From assembly GCA_020723285.1 (NCBI GenBank), contig DYJE01000006.1:62001-126000 (forward strand): a DNA stretch of 64,000 nucleotides, in the 5' to 3' direction. Positions 54,039 to 64,000 of this stretch are shown in pieces. Source of the stretch: Desulforapulum autotrophicum. GTDB taxonomy: Bacteria; Desulfobacterota; Desulfobacteria; Desulfobacterales; Desulfolunaceae. The notes under the pieces are model-generated. The model was not told the DNA's origin, did not search any database, and was given only the letters and a program-made list of their open reading frames with translations. The position numbers were made by a program, and so were the translations under genes. Each line of letters starts with the position of its first letter. Position 1 is the first letter of the stretch.

Positions 54039-57000
54039 TTATGGACTCATCTGAAGAGCTCCGGGTTCCATAGGCAGGGAATCCCTCCCTTTCACGATGA
54101 AACTTCCGTAATCCCCACCTTTGACCCGTGCTTCACAGGGCTCTTTCAACAAATTTCCTGCGTCCTGAAATTCATTTGAAAGCGGTTTCAAACCGCCGTC
54201 AAGGTCACTGAAAGACGCCTGAATCAGTACCTCACCGTCAATGCCCATATCCGATGATGCATCGAGCACACTTGACGGATCGGCAAGAAAGACTTCCGAT
54301 AAAACACTGATGCGGCCTCCGTCCCCTTGAACGGCCCGTGCCGCAATGTCTGTTCTTTCAAGAACGATGAATCCGGATTCAAGTTCCAGATTCCCTCCCT
54401 GGGTCCCCTGGCCGCCACCGACACTTGCGAGTATTTCACTGTCGATCAGCCGCATAAGATTCTTCGAGATAATGCGAACATTTCCACCGTCCGCCTGATC
54501 TGCGTCAGCTGTAATTTTTGAACCGACACTGAAAATATCAGACAACGAAACGATTGAAATCTCTCCGCCATTCCCGGCACCCGTACTTTTAGCCGATATT
54601 TCCGAACCATTTCCAAGGGAAAGGTACCCGGCTGTCAGATCAATATCACCGCCCTTTCCCGAACCTTCAGCACTTGTGGATATGGCGGAATGATTGGCAA
54701 GAAAAAGATTGCCTATGATCTCCAGCCGTATGGAACCCGAGTCTCCATCTCCGCCGCTTCCGGCGAAAACCCCGGTTTTATCCACGGCTTTCGTTGTTCC
54801 GTCGGAGAAGCTTCCATCGATTGTAAATTCATCCGCCGTAATAAAAATATCTCCACCTTTTCCCGAACTTGTCGCTTTTGTGGAAATCTCGGCATGGTTA
54901 TACAGACCAAGCTTACCGATATTCAATTCGATGGTTCCCGCGTCACCGGATCCCGTGGAAGTCGCAAAAAGGCCGGTCAGCCCGGCATCAGCACCGTCGA
55001 TGGTGAGGATGTCCGCCGTGATGGTTAGATTTCCGCCTTGGCCACTCCCAGTGGTTTCACAGGTTACGCCACCACCGCCTTCAATGGTGACCGTTTCAGC
55101 CTCAATCGTGATATCACCAGCGATACCGTCCCCGCCTGAAATACTCTCCATGGTGCAACCATTCATGACAACACTACCGGCCATGACATTCACAGTTCCG
55201 GCATTGGCATAACCGTACGTTGAAGCTGCGATGAACGCATTTCCTTCCATCAGAACCGATTCAACGTCATGCAGCTTGATGTTTCCGCCATGTGCGGAAA
55301 CCGTCGTTTTATCACCGCACATACTGCTTATCGCGGCAGGTTTGGCGGGATCGTCATTTGTTCCATTCAGAACAACGCGAGTTGCGGTGATGTCCATATC
55401 ACCGGCCACACCGGAACCGTAGGCGTTAGCGTTAATGGAGGCATCCCCCGTCAATGTCAAAGTGCCTGATAATTGAACAGCAATATTCCCCGAATCACCC
55501 TCATGGTTGCTTCCGGAAGAAATTTTGGTAGAACGTCCATCGGCAGCTCCTTCGATTGTCATATCATCAGCGGTAATTGCAATATCTCCACCCTTCCCCG
55601 ATCCATTGGATAACGCCATGATATTTGCCTGGTTTTTCATTACAATTTGTCCACCTTCTATGGTTATATTGCCACCATTTCCAGTTCCCCTGGATGCTGA
55701 ATCAATCATGGAATTGTCAAGAACAAGAGATCCGGTCATGATTTCGATATTTCCGGAATTCCCCGTATCCAGGGTGCTTGCAGAAACAACCGACTCATTC
55801 ACGGCTTCAATGGATTCCGCATGAATGATGATACCAGCTGAATCGCCTGAAAAAGCTGAAGAATCAATCATTCCCTTATCCATAAAGACAGAACCTGCGG
55901 TCAATGAGATGAGGCCTGTTAAGCCGCTGCCTTTCGAACCGTTTGTGATGTTTCCACCATCATTGATTGTGGCGGTTCCACAGGTTATGGAAATATCTCC
56001 GGCCGCAGACGAACCGGTTGTCAGTGAAAAAATCCGTGCTCTGTCCTCGATATCCGATAAGCCATGAACATACAAAGCGTCATCGATGGTGAGATGAATC
56101 GATCCGCAAGCACCGGAACCTGTGGTCGATGTGTTGATGGAAGCTCCGTTCTCAATCTCCAAGGAATGGGCATCGACATTTATATCCCCTCCTTTTCCGG
56201 ACTGTTGAGATTCAGCCGCAATCATTGCTGAATCGCTTATCAACAGATCATTTGTAGAAATACTTATGTCAGCGCCGTCTCCTGTACCCATGGCGTAGCT
56301 TAAAATGGAGCTTCGATTTGTAACCGCAATGTGATCCGCTCCGATATGTAACCCCCCTGAATGTTCAGAACCCGCTGACTGACTGAATATAAATCCTCCC
56401 GAATCAAATACAAAATCAGACGTTGTCAGACTGATTTCACCTGCTGCGGCCGCGTTATTGGTTATTGAAAAAATTTCTGGGCCTATGTTCAAAGCGCCCG
56501 ATCCATCCAGTGTGATGGAATCTTCCGCCTTAACCGTGATATTCCCGCAATCTCCCGCTCCTGTCCCGGAAGATGAAACCCTTATCACTGAATCATTTTC
56601 AAGCTTCAATGTCTTTGAATCCAAGTTGATATCACCGCATGTTCCCTGGCCAAGGGTATACGCCCTGATCGTGGAAGAATTTTTCATCGATAGGCCATTA
56701 TCGGACTCAATGAAGATGGAACCGCCGTTTCCACCCGTGTAAGTCAGTGCCTCCACAGTTGACAATGTGTTTAATGACATGTCACCCGTTAAATCGATCC
56801 CAATATCCCCTCCATTTCCCGCTGACCAGGAAACGCTTCGGATTTTCGAAGAATCATTCAATGTCAGTTCTCCGGCATTAATGGTGACGCTGCCCCCCTT
56901 GCCGGTATTCCATGATTCAGCCACGATTGACGCCGTGTTGCTCAGAGACAGAGTCCCCGTGCTATGAATCGCTATATTTCCGCCAGAACCGGAACCATTT

Positions 57001-58655
57001 GTTTTTGAAGTCAGTTTTGAACTGTCTTTCAGCGACATATCCCCGGATTCAATAACAATGTCTCCACCCGCGCAGGTGTCATTGGCGGTTGTAGAAATAT
57101 ACGATGATCCTGAAAGATCCACGTCACCGTTCCCCGTAATGGTGATATCACCGCCTGTATCGGAAGTGTAAGCCGTTGAAGATATAAAAGACGTAGCACC
57201 AAGAATCAGAGAATCATAACAGGTGATAGCCAGATCACCACCGTTCCCGTCATTAATGGATGAACTACTGCACCGTGAACCATTATTAAGCAGCATGGTG
57301 CCTGCCTTGATTGATACATCTCCACCATTTCCGGAATAATTTGCAATGGAAGAAATATAGGATGATCCATCAAGATTGATGGATTCCTTTCCTGTTATTG
57401 AAAGATATCCTCCGTTTCCTTCCGCTAGTGTCGACGTTGTTATTCTCGAACTGCCATTGAGCGAAATATTATTCGAACAAATGATTAGAGACCCGGCATC
57501 CCCAGTGCCGGACACCGAAGTGGAGATATAGGACCCCCCGGCCAAAGAAACGCCGTCAGTTCCCGTGACACTCAGATCTCCTCCCCAACCGGACGAATAG
57601 CTTGCCGTCCTGATATATGAAGCACCCGTGAGATCAATAGTGTCCGCATGAATGCGTCCACCACCGCAACGACCCTGTTCATAGGCGTAGGTTTCGACTG
57701 CACTTCCGTTTGAGAGCTGAATCAAGGAAGCGGCTTCCATGTCCAGAGAAAGTCCGGAGGCATCGGAAGAAGAATAGCCCCCTGTGTATACTGCTGTTTT
57801 ATCTATTTCAATTTTACCACCACGGATAATCACCGAACCATCGGGATAAGAACCTGAATAATCCTCGGATGAGACATAGGCGTTAGACAAAGTGACGACA
57901 CCTGTTTCACCGGCAGCATCCGTGAGGACGGAAGGAGACTGGAGAGAAATATCACCAGCGTTACCAACACTCACGATCTGGACTTTGCCCCCATCAACCC
58001 AGACCTGAGCCTGCCGGTAGTTCCCTGTGACATCAATATCACCCCCGACAAAGGACAGTGTTTCGCCTGAAGAGCCAAATATATGGGCGCTCTCAATGGA
58101 TATGGGGCCCGGATTGTCCGTAAGGAATCCAAATGCCTCGGGTTTGGCGATACTCAGTACGCTTGCCTGAACCGGATTGGCGAAAAAGACTGAGCCGTCC
58201 TCGAATTTCAGACTGTCCCCCGTGCTCACATGGAACGAACCGGGGATATTGAGGGTGGCGTATGGACCGAACATCACGCCATATGGATTCAGCAGAAACA
58301 CGTTCGCCCCGTTGATAGTCGAAGCCAGTTCACCGTTGATCGTGGAGGGTAAACCGCCTGTCACCCGCCCAATGATGTTTTCAATAGAAGCCGCTCCGCT
58401 GAACGTTGCACTCTCGCCCACATTGACGTTAAACTCTTTAAAACTATGAAAGAGGTTCGTCCCCCGGACCTGGCCGAGATCATCGGTAATGGAATAAGCA
58501 GGACCTGTGATGTTGACTTCCGAACCCAGGGTGCCGTCTGTGGAAATCTGAGCAGAGCATGTTAAAACCGAAATCAGATAACACACAAGAAACCGGGTTG
58601 CCGCAGACAATACTCGACAACAGCGATAACGCTTTTTTACACTTAAATTTTTCAT
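54039..58655 (-). CDS. TpsA filamentous haemagglutinin-like exoprotein
   Basis: A 1538-residue secreted protein from the ATG at 58655, preceded by GGGGAGAG. A signal peptide (to about residue 36) is followed by the TPS secretion domain (about 37-300) with LLNPYGVMFGPYATLNIPGS; NPYG is the family's NPNG/NPYG motif. The rest is a long right-handed beta-helix with about 40 repeats around G-x-G-G-D-I-x-I. There is no polymorphic toxin domain at the end. Instead the last 35 residues hold a single Cys and GSFIVKGRDSLPMEPGALQ, like the closing S-F-x-V-x-G-R-x-x-L-P-x-x-P motif of cyanobacterial TpsA proteins. That motif may serve for anchoring or processing, and the neighbouring proteases are candidates for acting there. 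Probable role: adhesin or surface fibre. Confidence 0.93.
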   Translation of the reverse strand: MKNLSVKKRYRCCRVLSAATRFLVCYLISVLTCSAQISTDGTLGSEVNITGPAYSITDDLGQVRGTNLFHSFKEFNVNVGESATFSGAASIENIIGRVTGGLPSTINGELASTINGANVFLLNPYGVMFGPYATLNIPGSFHVSTGDSLKFEDGSVFFANPVQASVLSIAKPEAFGFLTDNPGPISIESAHIFGSSGETLSFVGGDIDVTGNYRQAQVWVDGGKVQIVSVGNAGDISLQSPSVLTDAAGETGVVTLSNAYVSSEDYSGSYPDGSVIIRGGKIEIDKTAVYTGGYSSSDASGLSLDMEAASLIQLSNGSAVETYAYEQGRCGGGRIHADTIDLTGASYIRTASYSSGWGGDLSVTGTDGVSLAGGSYISTSVSGTGDAGSLIICSNNISLNGSSRITTSTLAEGNGGYLSITGKESINLDGSSYISSIANYSGNGGDVSIKAGTMLLNNGSRCSSSSINDGNGGDLAITCYDSLILGATSFISSTAYTSDTGGDITITGNGDVDLSGSSYISTTANDTCAGGDIVIESGDMSLKDSSKLTSKTNGSGSGGNIAIHSTGTLSLSNTASIVAESWNTGKGGSVTINAGELTLNDSSKIRSVSWSAGNGGDIGIDLTGDMSLNTLSTVEALTYTGGNGGSIFIESDNGLSMKNSSTIRAYTLGQGTCGDINLDSKTLKLENDSVIRVSSSGTGAGDCGNITVKAEDSITLDGSGALNIGPEIFSITNNAAAAGEISLTTSDFVFDSGGFIFSQSAGSEHSGGLHIGADHIAVTNRSSILSYAMGTGDGADISISTNDLLISDSAMIAAESQQSGKGGDINVDAHSLEIENGASINTSTTGSGACGSIHLTIDDALYVHGLSDIEDRARIFSLTTGSSAAGDISITCGTATINDGGNITNGSKGSGLTGLISLTAGSVFMDKGMIDSSAFSGDSAGIIIHAESIEAVNESVVSASTLDTGNSGNIEIMTGSLVLDNSMIDSASRGTGNGGNITIEGGQIVMKNQANIMALSNGSGKGGDIAITADDMTIEGAADGRSTKISSGSNHEGDSGNIAVQLSGTLTLTGDASINANAYGSGVAGDMDITATRVVLNGTNDDPAKPAAISSMCGDKTTVSAHGGNIKLHDVESVLMEGNAFIAASTYGYANAGTVNVMAGSVVMNGCTMESISGGDGIAGDITIEAETVTIEGGGGVTCETTGSGQGGNLTITADILTIDGADAGLTGLFATSTGSGDAGTIELNIGKLGLYNHAEISTKATSSGKGGDIFITADEFTIDGSFSDGTTKAVDKTGVFAGSGGDGDSGSIRLEIIGNLFLANHSAISTSAEGSGKGGDIDLTAGYLSLGNGSEISAKSTGAGNGGEISIVSLSDIFSVGSKITADADQADGGNVRIISKNLMRLIDSEILASVGGGQGTQGGNLELESGFIVLERTDIAARAVQGDGGRISVLSEVFLADPSSVLDASSDMGIDGEVLIQASFSDLDGGLKPLSNEFQDAGNLLKEPCEARVKGGDYGSFIVKGRDSLPMEPGALQMSP

Positions 58656-58921
58656 TATTCTCTCCCCACCGGACAAAATTTTACTTTATATATAAAAAAA
58701 ATTTATCTTTGCAAATGAGTTTTTTCGTATTATCAAAGAACCATCAGGAAATTGTCAGAACATATTTTAACAAACTGTATTTATTGATAAATTAAAACAA
58801 TCCGTTTCGAACATGGTTGATTATGTGTTGTTTTAAATACTTATTATTCTATCGATGGGTATGATTGTATGAAACATAAACCGGTATCGATCACCGCCGT
58901 TTTTTTATCTCCGGTAGTACT

Positions 58922-61030
58922 ATGAAGCGACTGCATTTGATTCTTCTTTTCACTGTATTGTCCGTTCAGGCTCAATCCGGTCTGGCTTCTGAAAAACACG
59001 CCCTTCTCATCGGGGTTGGAGATTACACACTTTCATCCGGATTCAGTGATCTTAAAGGTTCATTGAACGATGTGGATATCATGCATAAAACGTTGAAAAG
59101 CCGCCGTTTCGGTTTTGACCGTGTCACTGTTCTTCTCAACACGGAGGCTACACACAGCCGAATTGCAAAAGCGTTCACGAACCTCGCGTCAGAAGTCAGA
59201 AAAGATAAGGAGAGCTATGTTTACATTTATTATTCCGGCCACGGTTCACTGACAAGGGATCTGAACGGTGACGAAGGTAAACGATACGACATTCATGGCC
59301 AAATCCTCCCAAGCTACGATCAAACCTGGGTGACTTACGGTTCCAGACTAAAAAATAGCGCAACTATTCCTAACGGATTCAAAACCGTCGACCGTTACGA
59401 TATCCTTGACGATGAAATCAACGAATGGATTAACGACATTGCTGAGCACGTCAGTCAGCTGGTGTTCGTATCGGATTCCTGCCATTCTGGAAGCGTTTCC
59501 AGGGAAGGTATTTTTGCCGGTGTAAAAAAAGGTCCCGTAGACACCCGGGAACATCCGTTGGGAAGAAAAAATTACAGACGGAACAGTTCTTTGAACAACA
59601 TCGTCCGGGTGGGGGCCTGTACCGACTCGCAAATCGCGCGGGAATTCATCCCTTACGGAATGTCGGAAGAATACGGTATTTTCACGTGGTACTGGATTAA
59701 ATCCCTGAATGCCTGCCTTCCTCGCGATACCTGGAATCAGGTATTCAGCCGGGTTTCACGAATGGTCATGCAGGAGACTCCGAACAGGCAAAGCCCGCAG
59801 ATTGCGGGTGCCGTTTCGATGATGGTTTTTAATGACCGTTTTTCAGCAGACCGAAGAACCGTCCCTGTATACCAGGTTTGCCGGATTCCCGAAGGTTATC
59901 GGGTTTACATGGCTGCTGGAAGATTATCTGGCGTGACAAGAGGTTCCGTTTATACCCTGGAAAAACAACACGAACAATCAGCCCCCCCAAAAATTGTTGT
60001 TTCACATGTCGAACCCTTATCAAGCACTGCGATGAGTGAAACCCCGATTGCCGTGAACGATCAGCTCGTTGAAATGACACACCACTACGAAAGCTCGCCC
60101 ATACGACTGATGATAACGTCCACGCTTCAGAACAGCGGTAATAATATTAAAAAAATCAGAGATGTAATACAAAAAATCTCTCAATACCGGGTTACCGAAA
60201 GCGTAAAAGCATGCGATCTCATCGTTTGCTTGACTTCCATATCCACTCATTCATCATCAAGCCAAACATTTAGAGTCTCCAAGAGCCAAGATAACTGGTC
60301 TCCCGTGATCAAGATTATGGATAAAAACGGAGAATTTTATCAGGAGAATCTGATTCATCCATTCTCAGACAAAGGTCTTTTGGAATTTAAAAAAAATCTC
60401 GAAAAAATCGCGCGAATCAAAGATTTCATGAAAATCAACAGTGACGGGAATCCATGTCCATTGCTTGTCTCCGTCACCCCCATGGTGCCCTGCACCGGAA
60501 ACGGTTGCACAACGCCAGAATGGTTTGAGGAAAACTGGGATACGCCTCTATGTCCATCGAAAAAGCTAAAGACATTAACTCCTTTAAGCATCAATGACTT
60601 CGTTTCAAAAAAATGGGATCTATGCACAATGATACGGTTTAACGCAACGAACCCTGGAAAGATTCCATATTATTTCTATGTTGTCCAAGTGGGAAGCGAC
60701 GGCGAAATCACACCTGTTTTTCCAAGTTACGACGAAAGTGGTCAAATTGCTGAAGTAAAGCCCGGAATGAAAACCAGTGAAGGAAACGCTGTGATTCGGC
60801 TGGATTCACGTTCTGCTGATCATTTCAAAATTATTGCATGCAGGAAGGCCATCGATCACCGCCTGTTTTATCAGACGGGTTTTAGGGCGAACATGAGAAC
60901 CAAAGGCGCTGCAGATGAGCCAAACCCCCTTGAACAAATTCTGCTCAATGCCATATCCGGAACCCGCAATAGTGTAACGGCCGAAACAGGTAGTTGGTAC
61001 GCCGAAACCATTACGGTTGACATGAGGTAG
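58922..61030 (+). CDS. Exported caspase-fold (C14) protein, divergent from tpsA
   Basis: A 702-residue exported protein. A signal peptide (about 1-22, ending GLAS) precedes a caspase-fold domain (about 24-300) with His107 in YYSGHGS and Cys187 in FVSDSCHSGS. The dyad is intact. The remaining 400 residues resemble the beta-rich C-terminal region of similar caspase family proteins (YYFYVVQVGSDGEITPVFPS), which carries a DUF4384-like segment. It shares the 266-base divergent region (AT-rich) with tpsA, so the two may be switched on together. The ribosome site is weak. Likely acts in the periplasm or on the surface. Confidence 0.87.
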   Translation: MKRLHLILLFTVLSVQAQSGLASEKHALLIGVGDYTLSSGFSDLKGSLNDVDIMHKTLKSRRFGFDRVTVLLNTEATHSRIAKAFTNLASEVRKDKESYVYIYYSGHGSLTRDLNGDEGKRYDIHGQILPSYDQTWVTYGSRLKNSATIPNGFKTVDRYDILDDEINEWINDIAEHVSQLVFVSDSCHSGSVSREGIFAGVKKGPVDTREHPLGRKNYRRNSSLNNIVRVGACTDSQIAREFIPYGMSEEYGIFTWYWIKSLNACLPRDTWNQVFSRVSRMVMQETPNRQSPQIAGAVSMMVFNDRFSADRRTVPVYQVCRIPEGYRVYMAAGRLSGVTRGSVYTLEKQHEQSAPPKIVVSHVEPLSSTAMSETPIAVNDQLVEMTHHYESSPIRLMITSTLQNSGNNIKKIRDVIQKISQYRVTESVKACDLIVCLTSISTHSSSSQTFRVSKSQDNWSPVIKIMDKNGEFYQENLIHPFSDKGLLEFKKNLEKIARIKDFMKINSDGNPCPLLVSVTPMVPCTGNGCTTPEWFEENWDTPLCPSKKLKTLTPLSINDFVSKKWDLCTMIRFNATNPGKIPYYFYVVQVGSDGEITPVFPSYDESGQIAEVKPGMKTSEGNAVIRLDSRSADHFKIIACRKAIDHRLFYQTGFRANMRTKGAADEPNPLEQILLNAISGTRNSVTAETGSWYAETITVDMR

Positions 61031-61161: not shown

Positions 61162-61279
61162 ATTTCATAAAAAACCCTGTAACAGACGTTCCCTTCAAAC
61201 GTTATTCTCAAACAAACTGATCCCCCATGATCCCCAAATATCATGGACGTCTCCCCACCCCTAATCAAGGAGAAACACA

Positions 61280-62335
61280 ATGAAAAAAATCGTTTTCACC
61301 GTTCTTGTTTCCATGTTTTTTTCCGCCGCCGTTATTTCTGCCGGCCCCCCTTCAGGATTATCACGAATTGAACTCCTGGGCCGGCACATGTTCAAGGACA
61401 AAAATCTGTCGTACAACGGGACCCAGTCCTGCCAGGTCTGCCATCACCCCCTGTCTGGATTTGCCGACCGGCGGAACTCCATAAATCCTGAAACCAGCGT
61501 GGTTTCCGTTGGGGCCGACGGTGTGAGCAAAGGAGGGAGAAACGCCCCCTCAGCCGCATACGCAGGCTACAGCCCCATGCTTTCCATGTACGACGATGAA
61601 TGGGTGGGCGGTTTGTTCTGGGACGGCCGGGCTGACGGAGGAACCCATCTCAGAGATCCCCTGGCAGAACAGGCCCAGGGCCCACCTTTGAATCCCATTG
61701 AAATGGCCATGCCTGACAAGGCATCGATCATCGCTGTCATAGAGTCATCAACTTATGCCGGATTGTTTTTGAATGTTTTCGGGACAAACGCCTTTGACAA
61801 CACGGAAACAGCCTATGACAATTTCGCAAAAGCCGTAGCCGCCTATGAGCGGTCAACGGAAGTGACGGCATTTTCCTCAAAATACGATGTGGCCCGATCA
61901 GCGTTCACCGCCGCCGAAAACCGGGGATTTGGCCTTTTCAAGACCCATTGCGCCTCCTGCCACAGCACCGATGCGAACTTTGGAGCACCTGCGTCGCTGT
62001 TCACCAATTATCATTACAAAAACATCGGTGTGCCTGCCAATCCCCTGGTCCCCCTTGGCGGTCCCGATCTGGGTCTTGGCGTCACCGTTTCCGATGAGGC
62101 TCAGGATGGTAAATTCAAAGTGCCGACTTTAAGAAACATCTCCCAGTCAGCCCCCTACAGCCACAATGGGTCATTCTCAACGTTGAAAGCCATGGTGTCT
62201 TTCGTCAGCGACAGACATGGATTTACACCCGAACTCAACAGAAATCTTGATCAAACCGTGGGTAATCTGTATTTGTCCGACAACGAGGTCAACGATCTCG
62301 TATCATTTCTCCTGACTCTGACCGACGGCTACTGA
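61280..62335 (+). CDS. Dihaem cytochrome c peroxidase/MauG-family protein
   Basis: A 351-residue periplasmic protein with signal peptide (VSMFFSAAVISA). Two haem-binding motifs are present: CQVCH near residue 52 and CASCH near 218. GGRNAPSAAYAGYSP and GLFWDGRADG are typical for the family; KVPTLRNISQSAPYSHNGSF near the end matches its last domain, and the Met/His ligand region follows. Reduces hydrogen peroxide, or oxidises protein residues if MauG-like. Its start follows AAGGAG. It has no obvious tie to the island to its left. Confidence 0.92.
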   Translation: MKKIVFTVLVSMFFSAAVISAGPPSGLSRIELLGRHMFKDKNLSYNGTQSCQVCHHPLSGFADRRNSINPETSVVSVGADGVSKGGRNAPSAAYAGYSPMLSMYDDEWVGGLFWDGRADGGTHLRDPLAEQAQGPPLNPIEMAMPDKASIIAVIESSTYAGLFLNVFGTNAFDNTETAYDNFAKAVAAYERSTEVTAFSSKYDVARSAFTAAENRGFGLFKTHCASCHSTDANFGAPASLFTNYHYKNIGVPANPLVPLGGPDLGLGVTVSDEAQDGKFKVPTLRNISQSAPYSHNGSFSTLKAMVSFVSDRHGFTPELNRNLDQTVGNLYLSDNEVNDLVSFLLTLTDGY

Positions 62336-62496: not shown

Positions 62497-62530
62497 CATA
62501 CCGGCCGGGAATGACATCCCGACCGGTATG
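62497..62530 (-). terminator. Hairpin after the repeat-protein gene
   Basis: CATACCGG-x-CGGGA, five bases, TCCCG-x-CCGGTATG. It lies nine bases after the minus-strand stop at 62540 and is nearly symmetrical, so it may serve transcripts from both sides. The T content after it is modest. Confidence 0.5.
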
Positions 62531-62539
62531 TCGTTAGAC

Positions 62540-62869
62540 CTAAAGCTGGCAGGAATCATCTTTGAGACGGCTCTTCTTCCGGTCGCGTGTTCTTGTCTGG
62601 TCTGCAGCCAGAAGATCCCCGTATGATCCGGGCAGAATGAATTTACAGGAACCGTCTTTTTTCTGATCCTTCAGCTGATCCCTGTCTCGGTCCTGGTCAT
62701 CGGCCAAAAGAACGCTGTCTTTGTCAACCTGAATGATCCGGCAGGAACCGTCTTTTTTCTGGTCTTTCAAACGGTCCTGTTTCTTTGTCTGATCCGCTGC
62801 CATGGCTGCACCAGACGCCATGATCGCCAGAGATACTGCAACAACGCCTGTTTTGATCCACTTGTTCAT
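62540..62869 (-). CDS. Small exported protein with repeated KKDGSC motifs
   Basis: A 109-residue protein with signal peptide MNKWIKTGVVAVSLAIMASG and probable cleavage after AMA. The mature 84 residues are very charged and hold three related units, each ending in one cysteine: RLKDQKKDGSC, QLKDQKKDGSC and a degenerate SRLKDDSC. Hydrophobic stretches IIQVDKDSVLLADD and FILPGSYGDLLAAD separate them. AAGGAG precedes the ATG. No family is known to me. The three Cys could bind metal or cross-link; the Asp/Lys-rich units resemble ion-binding repeats. It is divergent from an ECF sigma factor gene, which might control it. Confidence 0.75.
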   Translation of the reverse strand: MNKWIKTGVVAVSLAIMASGAAMAADQTKKQDRLKDQKKDGSCRIIQVDKDSVLLADDQDRDRDQLKDQKKDGSCKFILPGSYGDLLAADQTRTRDRKKSRLKDDSCQL

Positions 62870-63083
62870 TTTAATCTCCTTTTATCATGTTTTTTATGGA
62901 ATCCTTGAATGGAAACCTGTTATCTTCCGGACCTGATGCCCGGCTTTGATACTTTCAACGGAACAGTATAAAAAACGTTACACGCAGGATCGATTTTTTT
63001 AACTGATTATTCAATTGAACATTTTATGTTATCAATCTGTAACGTTTTCCGGCCTGATCCGTTTTTACACCAAGGTGAAATGT

Positions 63084-63572
63084 GTGGATACTTTCAAAAC
63101 ATTTTATATCGAGAGCCGAGACGGACTTTTCAGTTATCTGATCCGGATGACAGGGGACTATCATCTTTCATCGGATATTCTCCAGGAAAGCTATGCGCGA
63201 CTGCTTTCAAACTACGGAGCCTTAGAAAAAAACAAAGGCCTTTTGTACCGGATCGCCCGGAACGCTCTCATCGACACGCGACGGAGGCTAAAACGTGAAA
63301 TTGACGGTGAACCTCCAGATATCACCGACGAAAATAATCCTGAATCGGATCTGATGATCAAGGAATCCTACCGGAAGGTGATCAAAGCCATGGGTGAACT
63401 CGATGAAACGGAGAGGGATATTCTTTCCCTCAGCGTGAGCGGTGATTTCTCTTACAAGGACATTGCCTCACTCATCGGGATCAGCGAAGTCAATGTCCGG
63501 GTCAAGATCCATCGGGCGAGATTGAAACTGAAGGACTTGCTCCTCAAGAGCGGGAAAGGAGACGTGCCGTGA
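63084..63572 (+). CDS. ECF sigma factor
   Basis: A 162-residue extracytoplasmic function sigma factor. Region 2 is FKTFYIESRDGLFSYLIRMT, with YHLSSDILQESYARLL. Region 4 is DETERDILSLSVSGDFSYKD, then IASLIGISEVNVRVKIHRAR. I chose GTG at 63084, preceded by AAGGTG; an in-frame TTG at 63015 would add 23 residues. The gene end overlaps the next gene by four bases, so the two are coupled. Confidence 0.87.
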   Translation: MDTFKTFYIESRDGLFSYLIRMTGDYHLSSDILQESYARLLSNYGALEKNKGLLYRIARNALIDTRRRLKREIDGEPPDITDENNPESDLMIKESYRKVIKAMGELDETERDILSLSVSGDFSYKDIASLIGISEVNVRVKIHRARLKLKDLLLKSGKGDVP

Positions 63573-64000
63573 AAGAACTGGCGAGCCTTTTTATTGACGA
63601 TGAACTGTCTTTGGATGAAAAATTGAATTTTGTGGATGCCATCCATGACAGCAATGTTTTTTATACAGAAACGAAACAGCTGATCGATCTGGAAATGGTT
63701 CTTTCATCCGATGTGACGGATCATGCCCCTCCGACATGGGTTCCGGCCCAACCCGTCATCCCGGGCCTGATAAACCGGATCATGTCTTTCATCAGACCCG
63801 TAGGCTACGCCCTTACCGGGACCTTCGCGGCTCTCATCTTCGTTTTTGTTTCCCAAAACAATCAAACCGTTACCGAAACCCGTTCGAACCGTTTTGTGAT
63901 ATACAAACCCGATGTATCCAAGGTCGAAATTACCGGAAGCTTTACCCTCTGGGAAAAAGTCCCGCTTCACGAGGCCGGTGACAGCGGATACTGGGAAGTG
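63569..64000 (+). CDS. Anti-sigma-like membrane protein, 3' part beyond window
   Basis: The frame starts with GTG at 63569, overlapping the sigma stop, and stays open to the edge (144 codons visible). It begins MKELASLFIDDELSLDEKLN, typical of the cytoplasmic head of anti-sigma factors without a zinc finger. A membrane segment follows (about 88-105, YALTGTFAALIFVFV), then a beta-rich part (RFVIYKPDVSKVEITGSFTL, then WEKVPL). The last part resembles the start of a CBM48/AMPK glycogen-binding-like fold. It may sense or bind a carbohydrate, but the domain is truncated. The position right after the sigma factor supports an anti-sigma role. Confidence 0.7.
   Translation, partial: MKELASLFIDDELSLDEKLNFVDAIHDSNVFYTETKQLIDLEMVLSSDVTDHAPPTWVPAQPVIPGLINRIMSFIRPVGYALTGTFAALIFVFVSQNNQTVTETRSNRFVIYKPDVSKVEITGSFTLWEKVPLHEAGDSGYWEV

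Follow-up and report, generated by a model that had tools for sequence, protein, structure and literature searches.

What is a small protein with regularly recurring cysteines doing between the genes of an ECF sigma factor and a di-haem enzyme? This is the question raised by the locus analysed here, located in a 64,000-nucleotide stretch of Desulforapulum autotrophicum DNA (hereafter, the window). An earlier note on this DNA had considered a metal-binding, redox or matrix peptide, or a precursor peptide. Among these possibilities, the data point to a redox role exerted through thiols and linked with both the ECF sigma factor and the MauG-like enzyme.

The repeat gene and its protein

The open reading frame singled out in the earlier note is a real, coding gene (Table 1), and the description of its product as rich in Asp and Lys holds as well; the product is also exported-looking. 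Judged by eye, the N-terminus is signal-peptide-like, with a junction between AMA and ADQ, and leaves a mature part of 85 aa (84 aa if cleavage occurs one residue further on) in which Asp and Lys/Arg are abundant. Trp, His and Met are all missing from the mature protein of the window.

The mature sequence is made up of three tandem units, ADQTKKQDRLKDQKKDGSCRIIQVDKDSVLLA, DDQDRDRDQLKDQKKDGSCKFILPGSYGDLLA and ADQTRTRDRKKSRLKDDSCQL. The repeat is 32 aa long and consists of ADQTKKQDRLKDQKKDGSC, a spacer and LLA; the third unit terminates two residues past its Cys. Three Cys-ending, KKDGSC-like units had been claimed for this protein, and three are present (KKDGSC, KKDGSC and KDDSC), but they span 32, 32 and 21 aa instead of the 8–11 residues first given. 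Comparing the units with each other yielded BLOSUM62 scores of 81, 61 and 52, each of which was matched by none of 5000 shuffles of the mature sequence. AlphaFold, run with a 25-row alignment, gave a mean pLDDT of 51, with values below 50 from residue 31 onward except at residue 62. A folded mature domain was rejected on this low confidence, and the prediction fits a mature chain that would be disordered rather than folded. No Pfam or NCBIfam family matches the protein above cut-off, and no relative of it was found by tblastn in 72,556 plasmid records (E 0.1) or among solved structures (PDB, E 1). The hairpin between the two convergent genes is not followed by a run of T.

Table 1. Position of the features of the locus in the window, counted from its first base.
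Feature	Position	Strand	Basis
ECF-type promoter motif TGTAAC-N16-CGTT ahead of MauG-like gene	61178..61203	+	Motif search
MauG-like di-haem protein, 351 aa, two CxxCH	61280..62335	+	PF03150 124.6 bits; nearest PDB chain MauG, 1.7e-56
Strong hairpin, 14-bp stem, between convergent MauG-like and repeat genes	62497..62530	-	z -4.96
DGSC-repeat exported-looking protein, 109 aa	62540..62869	-	ORF, homologues, pN/pS
Repeat unit 3, 21 aa, terminus KDDSCQL-COOH	62543..62605	-	Unit-unit comparison
Repeat unit 2, 32 aa, Cys within KKDGSC	62606..62701	-	Unit-unit comparison
Repeat unit 1, 32 aa, Cys within KKDGSC	62702..62797	-	Unit-unit comparison
Signal peptide, 24 codons, MNKWIKTGVVAVSLAIMASGAAMA	62798..62869	-	By eye; AxA/ADQ-like junction recurring in homologue alignment
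Ribosome-binding-like GGAG	62876..62879	-	Read in sequence
ECF-type promoter motif TGTAAC-N16-CGTT, first base 113 nt upstream of repeat gene start	62957..62982	-	Motif search
ECF-type promoter motif TGTAAC-N16-CGTT ahead of sigma operon	63038..63063	+	Motif search
ECF sigma factor (putative start)	63084..63572	+	Pfam Sigma70_r2 and r4_2
Anti-sigma-like membrane protein, C-terminal AMPK1_CBM/CBM48 domain	63569..64000, runs beyond window (L002 6569-7138)	+	PF16561 37.1 bits, cut-off 26.8

An unnamed family of exported-looking proteins

The single sequence, used as a query against 58 genomes, matched in 6 of them, with eight rows at E≤1e-9. With a repeat profile, matches were obtained in 29 of the 389 genomes of the order and in 17 of its 150 genera (E≤1e-3); two of the 29 matched genomes (G266 and G326) hold no DGSC unit on reading. 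A sample of the phylum comprising 395 genomes gave 15 profile matches, 12 of them outside the order. By reading, seven of these 12 (L087, L088, L089, L091, L093, L095 and L096) contain RDGSC-like or RSC/KSC units, another one (L100) contains DGSG, and L094, L097, L098 and L099 resemble other proteins.

The earlier note had proposed to search for homologues with different repeat numbers, and had held that a lack of homologues would speak against its reading. Such homologues exist: 25 family rows from 24 genomes contain 68 units, from one to four per row, and the family proteins read are 47–160 aa long. The first repeat copy of genome G004 is a divergent, Asp-rich form, and the array of G001 appears as four units on each of two contig ends, which were left unjoined. 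Of the 76 mature cysteines in the 25 rows, 68 stand in a D[GDR][ST]C or DKEC context; the other eight are all found within four single-unit proteins. The residues ahead of the Cys in the 68 units are G in 94% and S in 97%, conservation of the D, S/T and C columns being partly built in because the pattern used to pick units fixed D and C and permitted S or T. Five homologue pairs gave pN/pS values of 0.06, 0.15, 0.18, 0.33 and 0.39, and the gene is thus a coding one under purifying selection.

The protein of the window has the features that delimit this DGSC-repeat family, i.e., a signal peptide (by eye) and hydrophilic units ending in D-G-S-C, present in other numbers elsewhere. It is almost certain that the repeat gene belongs to an exported family with no Pfam or NCBIfam name. 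Matches of homologues to ExtJ, SDE5640, HdeB, CopK and similar NCBIfam families were discarded (E 0.0035 or weaker, far under the cut-offs), those to ExtJ being confined to the signal peptide; six Pfam matches, each of a single member, were likewise rejected (E 0.00032 or weaker). A search of open-licence papers for the KKDGSC motif found none.

The architecture of the units raises the question of whether the protein might be a polyprotein, cleaved at hydrophobic-x-A/[AD]DQ junctions into Cys-terminal peptides of about 20 aa that act as signals or toxins. The junctions between units recur and resemble a signal-peptidase site, and 18 of the 25 family rows stop within two residues of the last Cys. 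The junction can also be accounted for by tandem duplication of the mature N-terminus, members with one unit exist, and no dedicated protease or transporter was recognised among the neighbours. We consider a precursor role quite improbable.

The sigma/anti-sigma cassette

ECF sigma factors and their membrane anti-sigma factors are encoded by adjacent genes and are expressed from a self-promoting motif, with AAC or GAC at -35 and CGT at -10. The sigma factor of the window contains Sigma70 regions 2 and 4 only, as is proper to the ECF group. Its likely start, chosen by eye from relatives, is the GTG at 63084, the longest ORF beginning at 63015. The adjoining gene codes for a putative anti-sigma factor, as suggested by where it lies, by a stretch that looks hydrophobic to the eye and by the promoter it shares. 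The C-terminal domain of this protein exceeds the Pfam cut-off for CBM48/AMPK-CBM and is CBM-like by sequence. Past the window end (L002) are encoded a lipoprotein with a domain related to this CBM (hhalign probability 99.1, E 1.2e-18) and, by alignment, a secreted protein with a Gly-rich tail. The cassette resembles general ECF/anti-sigma pairs in its adjacent genes and self-promoting motif, and differs from them in that the C-terminal domain of the anti-sigma is probably extracytoplasmic, is CBM48-like and is repeated in the accompanying lipoprotein. A profile of the anti-sigma matches in 199 of the 389 genomes of the order, many of the weaker matches spanning the CBM part alone. Open-licence papers searched for an ECF sigma factor with a CBM48 or AMPK-CBM anti-sigma included nothing related, judged by title; searches for ECF in sulfate reducers and for metal sulfide with extracellular protein led nowhere in the same literature.

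An ECF sigma pair and a peroxidase had been noted beside the repeat gene. Both genes do adjoin it, the "peroxidase" being nearer to MauG than to cytochrome c peroxidases (see below). When genes within 5 kb of 28 repeat loci were clustered, ECF genes were present at six loci, MauG-like genes at five, CBM anti-sigma genes at four and genes for the Gly-rich-tail protein at three, the window's own member joining this last group by alignment. That an ECF gene adjoins every homologue was rejected, as the six loci compared at the outset have none next to their homologues.

A promoter motif shared by the locus genes and by unlinked family genes

The motif TGTAAC-N16-CGTT was first noticed by eye ahead of three genes of the locus. 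It occurs exactly three times in the window, against 0.02 occurrences expected by chance, and the Gly-rich gene of the locus has a one-mismatch site (GGTAAC) upstream. In the whole genome (G000) there are five exact sites, three of which precede the locus genes, against five for the reversed pattern; the corresponding counts are 7 and 10 in G001, 5 and 5 in G002, and 7 and 10 in G004. As genome-wide counts do not exceed the control, the case rests on the position of the sites.

We therefore give the counts by position. The form TGTRAC-N15/16/17-CGTW, which was widened after seeing other families and which the 27 family genes helped to define, is found within 300 nt of 9 of these 27 genes and of 3 of 303 other genes of the same loci (Fisher 8e-9); L024, with no 5′ end, was left out of this count, and L062 entered it with 199 nt upstream only. 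All nine sites are located at -96 to -134 from the start, and the three background genes are the MauG-like gene of the window and two ECF genes. Further ECF/CBM-anti-sigma operons were searched from -350 to +200 of the longest-ORF start, leaving out the four motif-defining genomes, same-genome duplicates and L119, L121 and L130, which have no ECF/anti-sigma pair. TGTRAC-N16/17-CGTW was present at 19 of 27 operons versus 4 of 109 other genes, and scrambled motifs at 0–1 of the 27; eight operons have no motif. Two of the four background genes code for exported low-complexity proteins, one of them a Gly-rich Cys protein. In nine other cassettes, at different loci, the equivalent site of the sigma operon lies at -36 to -38. 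All motif and co-occurrence statistics given here treat related genomes as independent.

The regulon can also be followed in genomes in which its genes are dispersed. Genome G001 has its sigma, Gly-rich, repeat and MauG-like genes distributed over three contigs, and every one of these genes has the motif. Five of the seven exact sites of this genome are those of the sigma operon, of the other three genes and of a gene for a small exported DGSG protein, and two fall in longer ORFs. Of the seven exact sites in G004, one precedes the sigma gene and another a second exported Cys-repeat gene (L080:7968-8420, GCAPKAKQKQKQKDKHKDGPC-type units), the product of which has KDGPC and KDRPC units; five lie before or inside genes of no evident connection. 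The first repeat copy of G004 has a one-mismatch site.

Conservation of the motif at unlinked genes argues against a coincidental neighbourhood. The repeat gene is very probably under the control of the neighbouring ECF sigma factor, and the adjacency of repeat gene and sigma pair is, on the promoter evidence and as far as sequences can tell, functional. This bears on the simplest alternative, i.e., an ordinary low-complexity hydrophilic exported protein with incidental Cys and coincidental neighbours. The composition is indeed biased, and a sigma gene stands beside homologues at only 6 of 28 loci, with none beside those of the six loci compared at the outset; yet the G and S kept ahead of the Cys, pN/pS values well under 1 and a motif retained even at unlinked genes all oppose this view, which is very hard to credit.

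A second element, GTAGGAYAA-N5-GAYA, was found upstream of seven other family genes and of none of the 303 other genes. Five of the seven loci also have, in the vicinity, genes from the same clusters for a binding protein, a histidine kinase and a response regulator; the annotated ones, at L067 and L076, are Phosphonate-bd, HisKA_3/sCache_3 and LuxR-type. Both elements, the motif in its exact form and the second one, are missing from eleven of the 27 family genes; one of these eleven, L028, has a one-mismatch site. The repeat gene of other genera (L067, L073-L076) is preceded by a conserved GTAGGACAA box and is found close to genes for a LuxR-type regulator, a histidine kinase and a binding protein.

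The MauG-like enzyme and its Cys-repeat neighbours

A PF03150 match and two CxxCH motifs place the window enzyme in the CCP_MauG superfamily. MauG (PDB 3l4m and others) is its nearest solved relative (about 1e-56), followed by two other di-haem enzymes (7e-28 and 2e-21) and by cytochrome c peroxidases (3e-18 to 3e-14). Both CxxCH align with those of MauG. Four orthologues are 54–58% identical to the window enzyme. In MauG, Tyr294 is the axial ligand and Trp199 belongs to the relay; both were located through the alignment with the PDB chain. At the position of Tyr294, the five orthologues aligned have V, I, H, H and I, and the window enzyme lacks Trp199. MauG chemistry is hence not to be assumed, these residues differing from those of MauG proper (TTQ maturation). 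The enzyme does not match that of the MbnP/MbnH pair either, scoring 129.8 bits with TIGR04039 against a cut-off of 362.85.

The 389 genomes include 21 with an orthologue at E≤1e-120; 11 of these 21 also match the repeat profile (Fisher 1e-8, kinship uncorrected), so that 18 of the 29 repeat-profile genomes have none. By genus, six of seven are shared with the repeat profile (6e-6), in two of them in different species. The MauG-like gene adjoins the repeat gene in G000, G155, G130, G333, G280 and G292. Nine of the 21 orthologue genes have the promoter motif, either directly within 350 nt (G000, G001, G234, G190 at -316 and G279 at -189) or with a Cys-repeat gene between motif and MauG gene (G130, G155, G333 and G368); twelve have it neither way. 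In G327 a distance of 2.2 kb separates the upstream motif from the MauG gene, and a GPGDCG gene lies in this interval; the MauG gene of G006 is cut near a contig end. No report of a MauG-like enzyme with an ECF sigma factor was found in open-licence papers.

In G368 the order is motif, gene for a two-unit GPGDCG protein, and MauG-like gene. The intervening protein has GPGDGTG...GPGDCG units and an LMLMAA junction; a search with it gave matches in 16 of 311 genomes, and 4 of the 16 carry the ECF motif. Charged and Gly/Asp fillers are mixed inside single proteins at L078 and L090, and DGSC and GPGDC proteins can thus be read as one architecture, i.e., a hydrophobic junction, a hydrophilic filler and a cysteine. 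Exported Gly/Asp-rich proteins with GPGDGTGNGPGDC-like units were also met at L204:4236-4586 and L208-L222, and in G022, G159 and G251 a Gly/Asp-rich protein gene lies on the contig of the CBM anti-sigma, within about 2 kb.

These mixed fillers, as well as the ECF motif upstream of 10 of 24 genes for Gly-rich exported proteins, would suit a structural matrix or coat in which the envelope contains disordered Cys-repeat and Gly-rich proteins joined by cross-links, with oxidising power provided by the di-haem enzyme. The repeat proteins are short for such a task, and no cell-wall anchor or assembly gene was recognised. A matrix or coat is accordingly a minor candidate, and we hold it to be improbable.

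A possible function of the repeated cysteines

According to PMC12452194, repeat bufferins are MNIO-linked exported precursors (oxazolins) of EGKCG type, with two EGKCG per 17 aa, and ECF sigma genes are found in the gene clusters of copper chelators that are exported and have Cys motifs. The window family shares with the EGKCG-type bufferins described there a Sec signal peptide, a variable number of short repeats, a Gly-x-Cys-like motif and the ECF link, and differs from them in its KKDGSC within units of about 32 aa, its CBM48-type anti-sigma and its di-haem enzyme. MNIO (PF05114), the one RiPP enzyme family looked for, was found in none of 12 genomes searched, the control matching in 2 of 14, and membership among bufferins or MNIO-modified RiPPs was therefore rejected. 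As for the DUF2282, Buf_6/12Cys or EGKCG signatures of bufferins, no Pfam or NCBIfam family at all matches above cut-off, and the members read contain no EGKCG. A bufferin-like role could still be played outside the cytoplasm by unmodified thiols that act as chelators of soft metal ions or cover particles of metal sulfide. A chain that is flexible and charged and has a single Cys in each unit would serve this, as would the precedent of the copper chelator clusters. Against it stand the lack of MNIO, cysteines that are single and spaced rather than arranged in CxxC or His clusters, and an annotated subset of neighbours among which no metal-efflux gene was recognised. We regard a metal buffer as unlikely, if the foremost of the alternatives.

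For MbnP/MbnH, CorA/CorB and MopE/SACCP, PMC3621798 describes a di-haem protein resembling MauG that is encoded with a partner, exported in the case of MopE; the window has a similar arrangement of genes, with the repeat protein as the candidate partner. The MopE modification described there converts Trp to kynurenine, and the mature protein of the window, devoid of Trp, has Cys as its recurring oxidisable residue.

The reading that we prefer, by a modest degree of confidence, is that of an ECF regulon that exports disordered thiol-repeat proteins along with a MauG-like partner. An envelope signal would be sensed by the CBM-like domain of the anti-sigma, perhaps together with the CBM-like lipoprotein of the cassette, and would free the sigma factor. 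The targets of the freed sigma factor would be its own operon and the genes of the Gly-rich, DGSC-repeat and MauG-like proteins. Once past the inner membrane, the repeat protein would carry thiols in multivalent form on a flexible chain, with the di-haem enzyme acting on or with these thiols, by oxidation, cross-linking or peroxide removal. The family, its units, the selection on it and the sharing of a promoter are read from the sequences; sigma release by the CBM-bearing anti-sigma, export, thiol function and action with the di-haem enzyme are what we infer. That Cys is the functional group of the units is likely. A direct enzyme-substrate relation between the MauG-like protein and the repeat protein is doubtful. 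Less probable still is that a CBM-gated ECF sigma co-induces exported disordered DGSC/GPGDC scaffolds and a MauG-like enzyme oxidising or cross-linking the unit Cys, which would represent a new extracytoplasmic modification system producing a multivalent redox or metal-binding polymer.

The promoter evidence ties a hitherto unnamed exported family, now delimited, to a sigma/anti-sigma cassette whose anti-sigma profile matches in many genomes of the order. The MauG-like enzyme gains a small and easily made candidate partner, and a single gene cluster lets the substrate of the enzyme and the signal for the CBM-bearing anti-sigma be tested together.

Other genes at the repeat loci

At four loci (L058, L064, L066 and L069), the repeat gene and a transporter gene are divergently oriented; the transporter is PHO4/PhoU by Pfam in L066. 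The gene at L059:2650-3069, which neighbours both the repeat gene and a further ECF gene, encodes an exported small protein that includes the stretches DLNEDGICD and RDGSG. Genome G292 contains a second, apparently broken copy of a multi-unit repeat gene (L077:8598-9125), which adjoins ECF and MauG-like genes. In the window, a caspase-like (Peptidase_C14) protein of 702 aa with a sub-threshold DUF4384 match is encoded upstream of the MauG-like gene (58922-61030), and a repetitive protein of 1545 aa, which presumably resembles secreted proteins of the filamentous haemagglutinin type, is encoded on the minus strand at 54039-58676.
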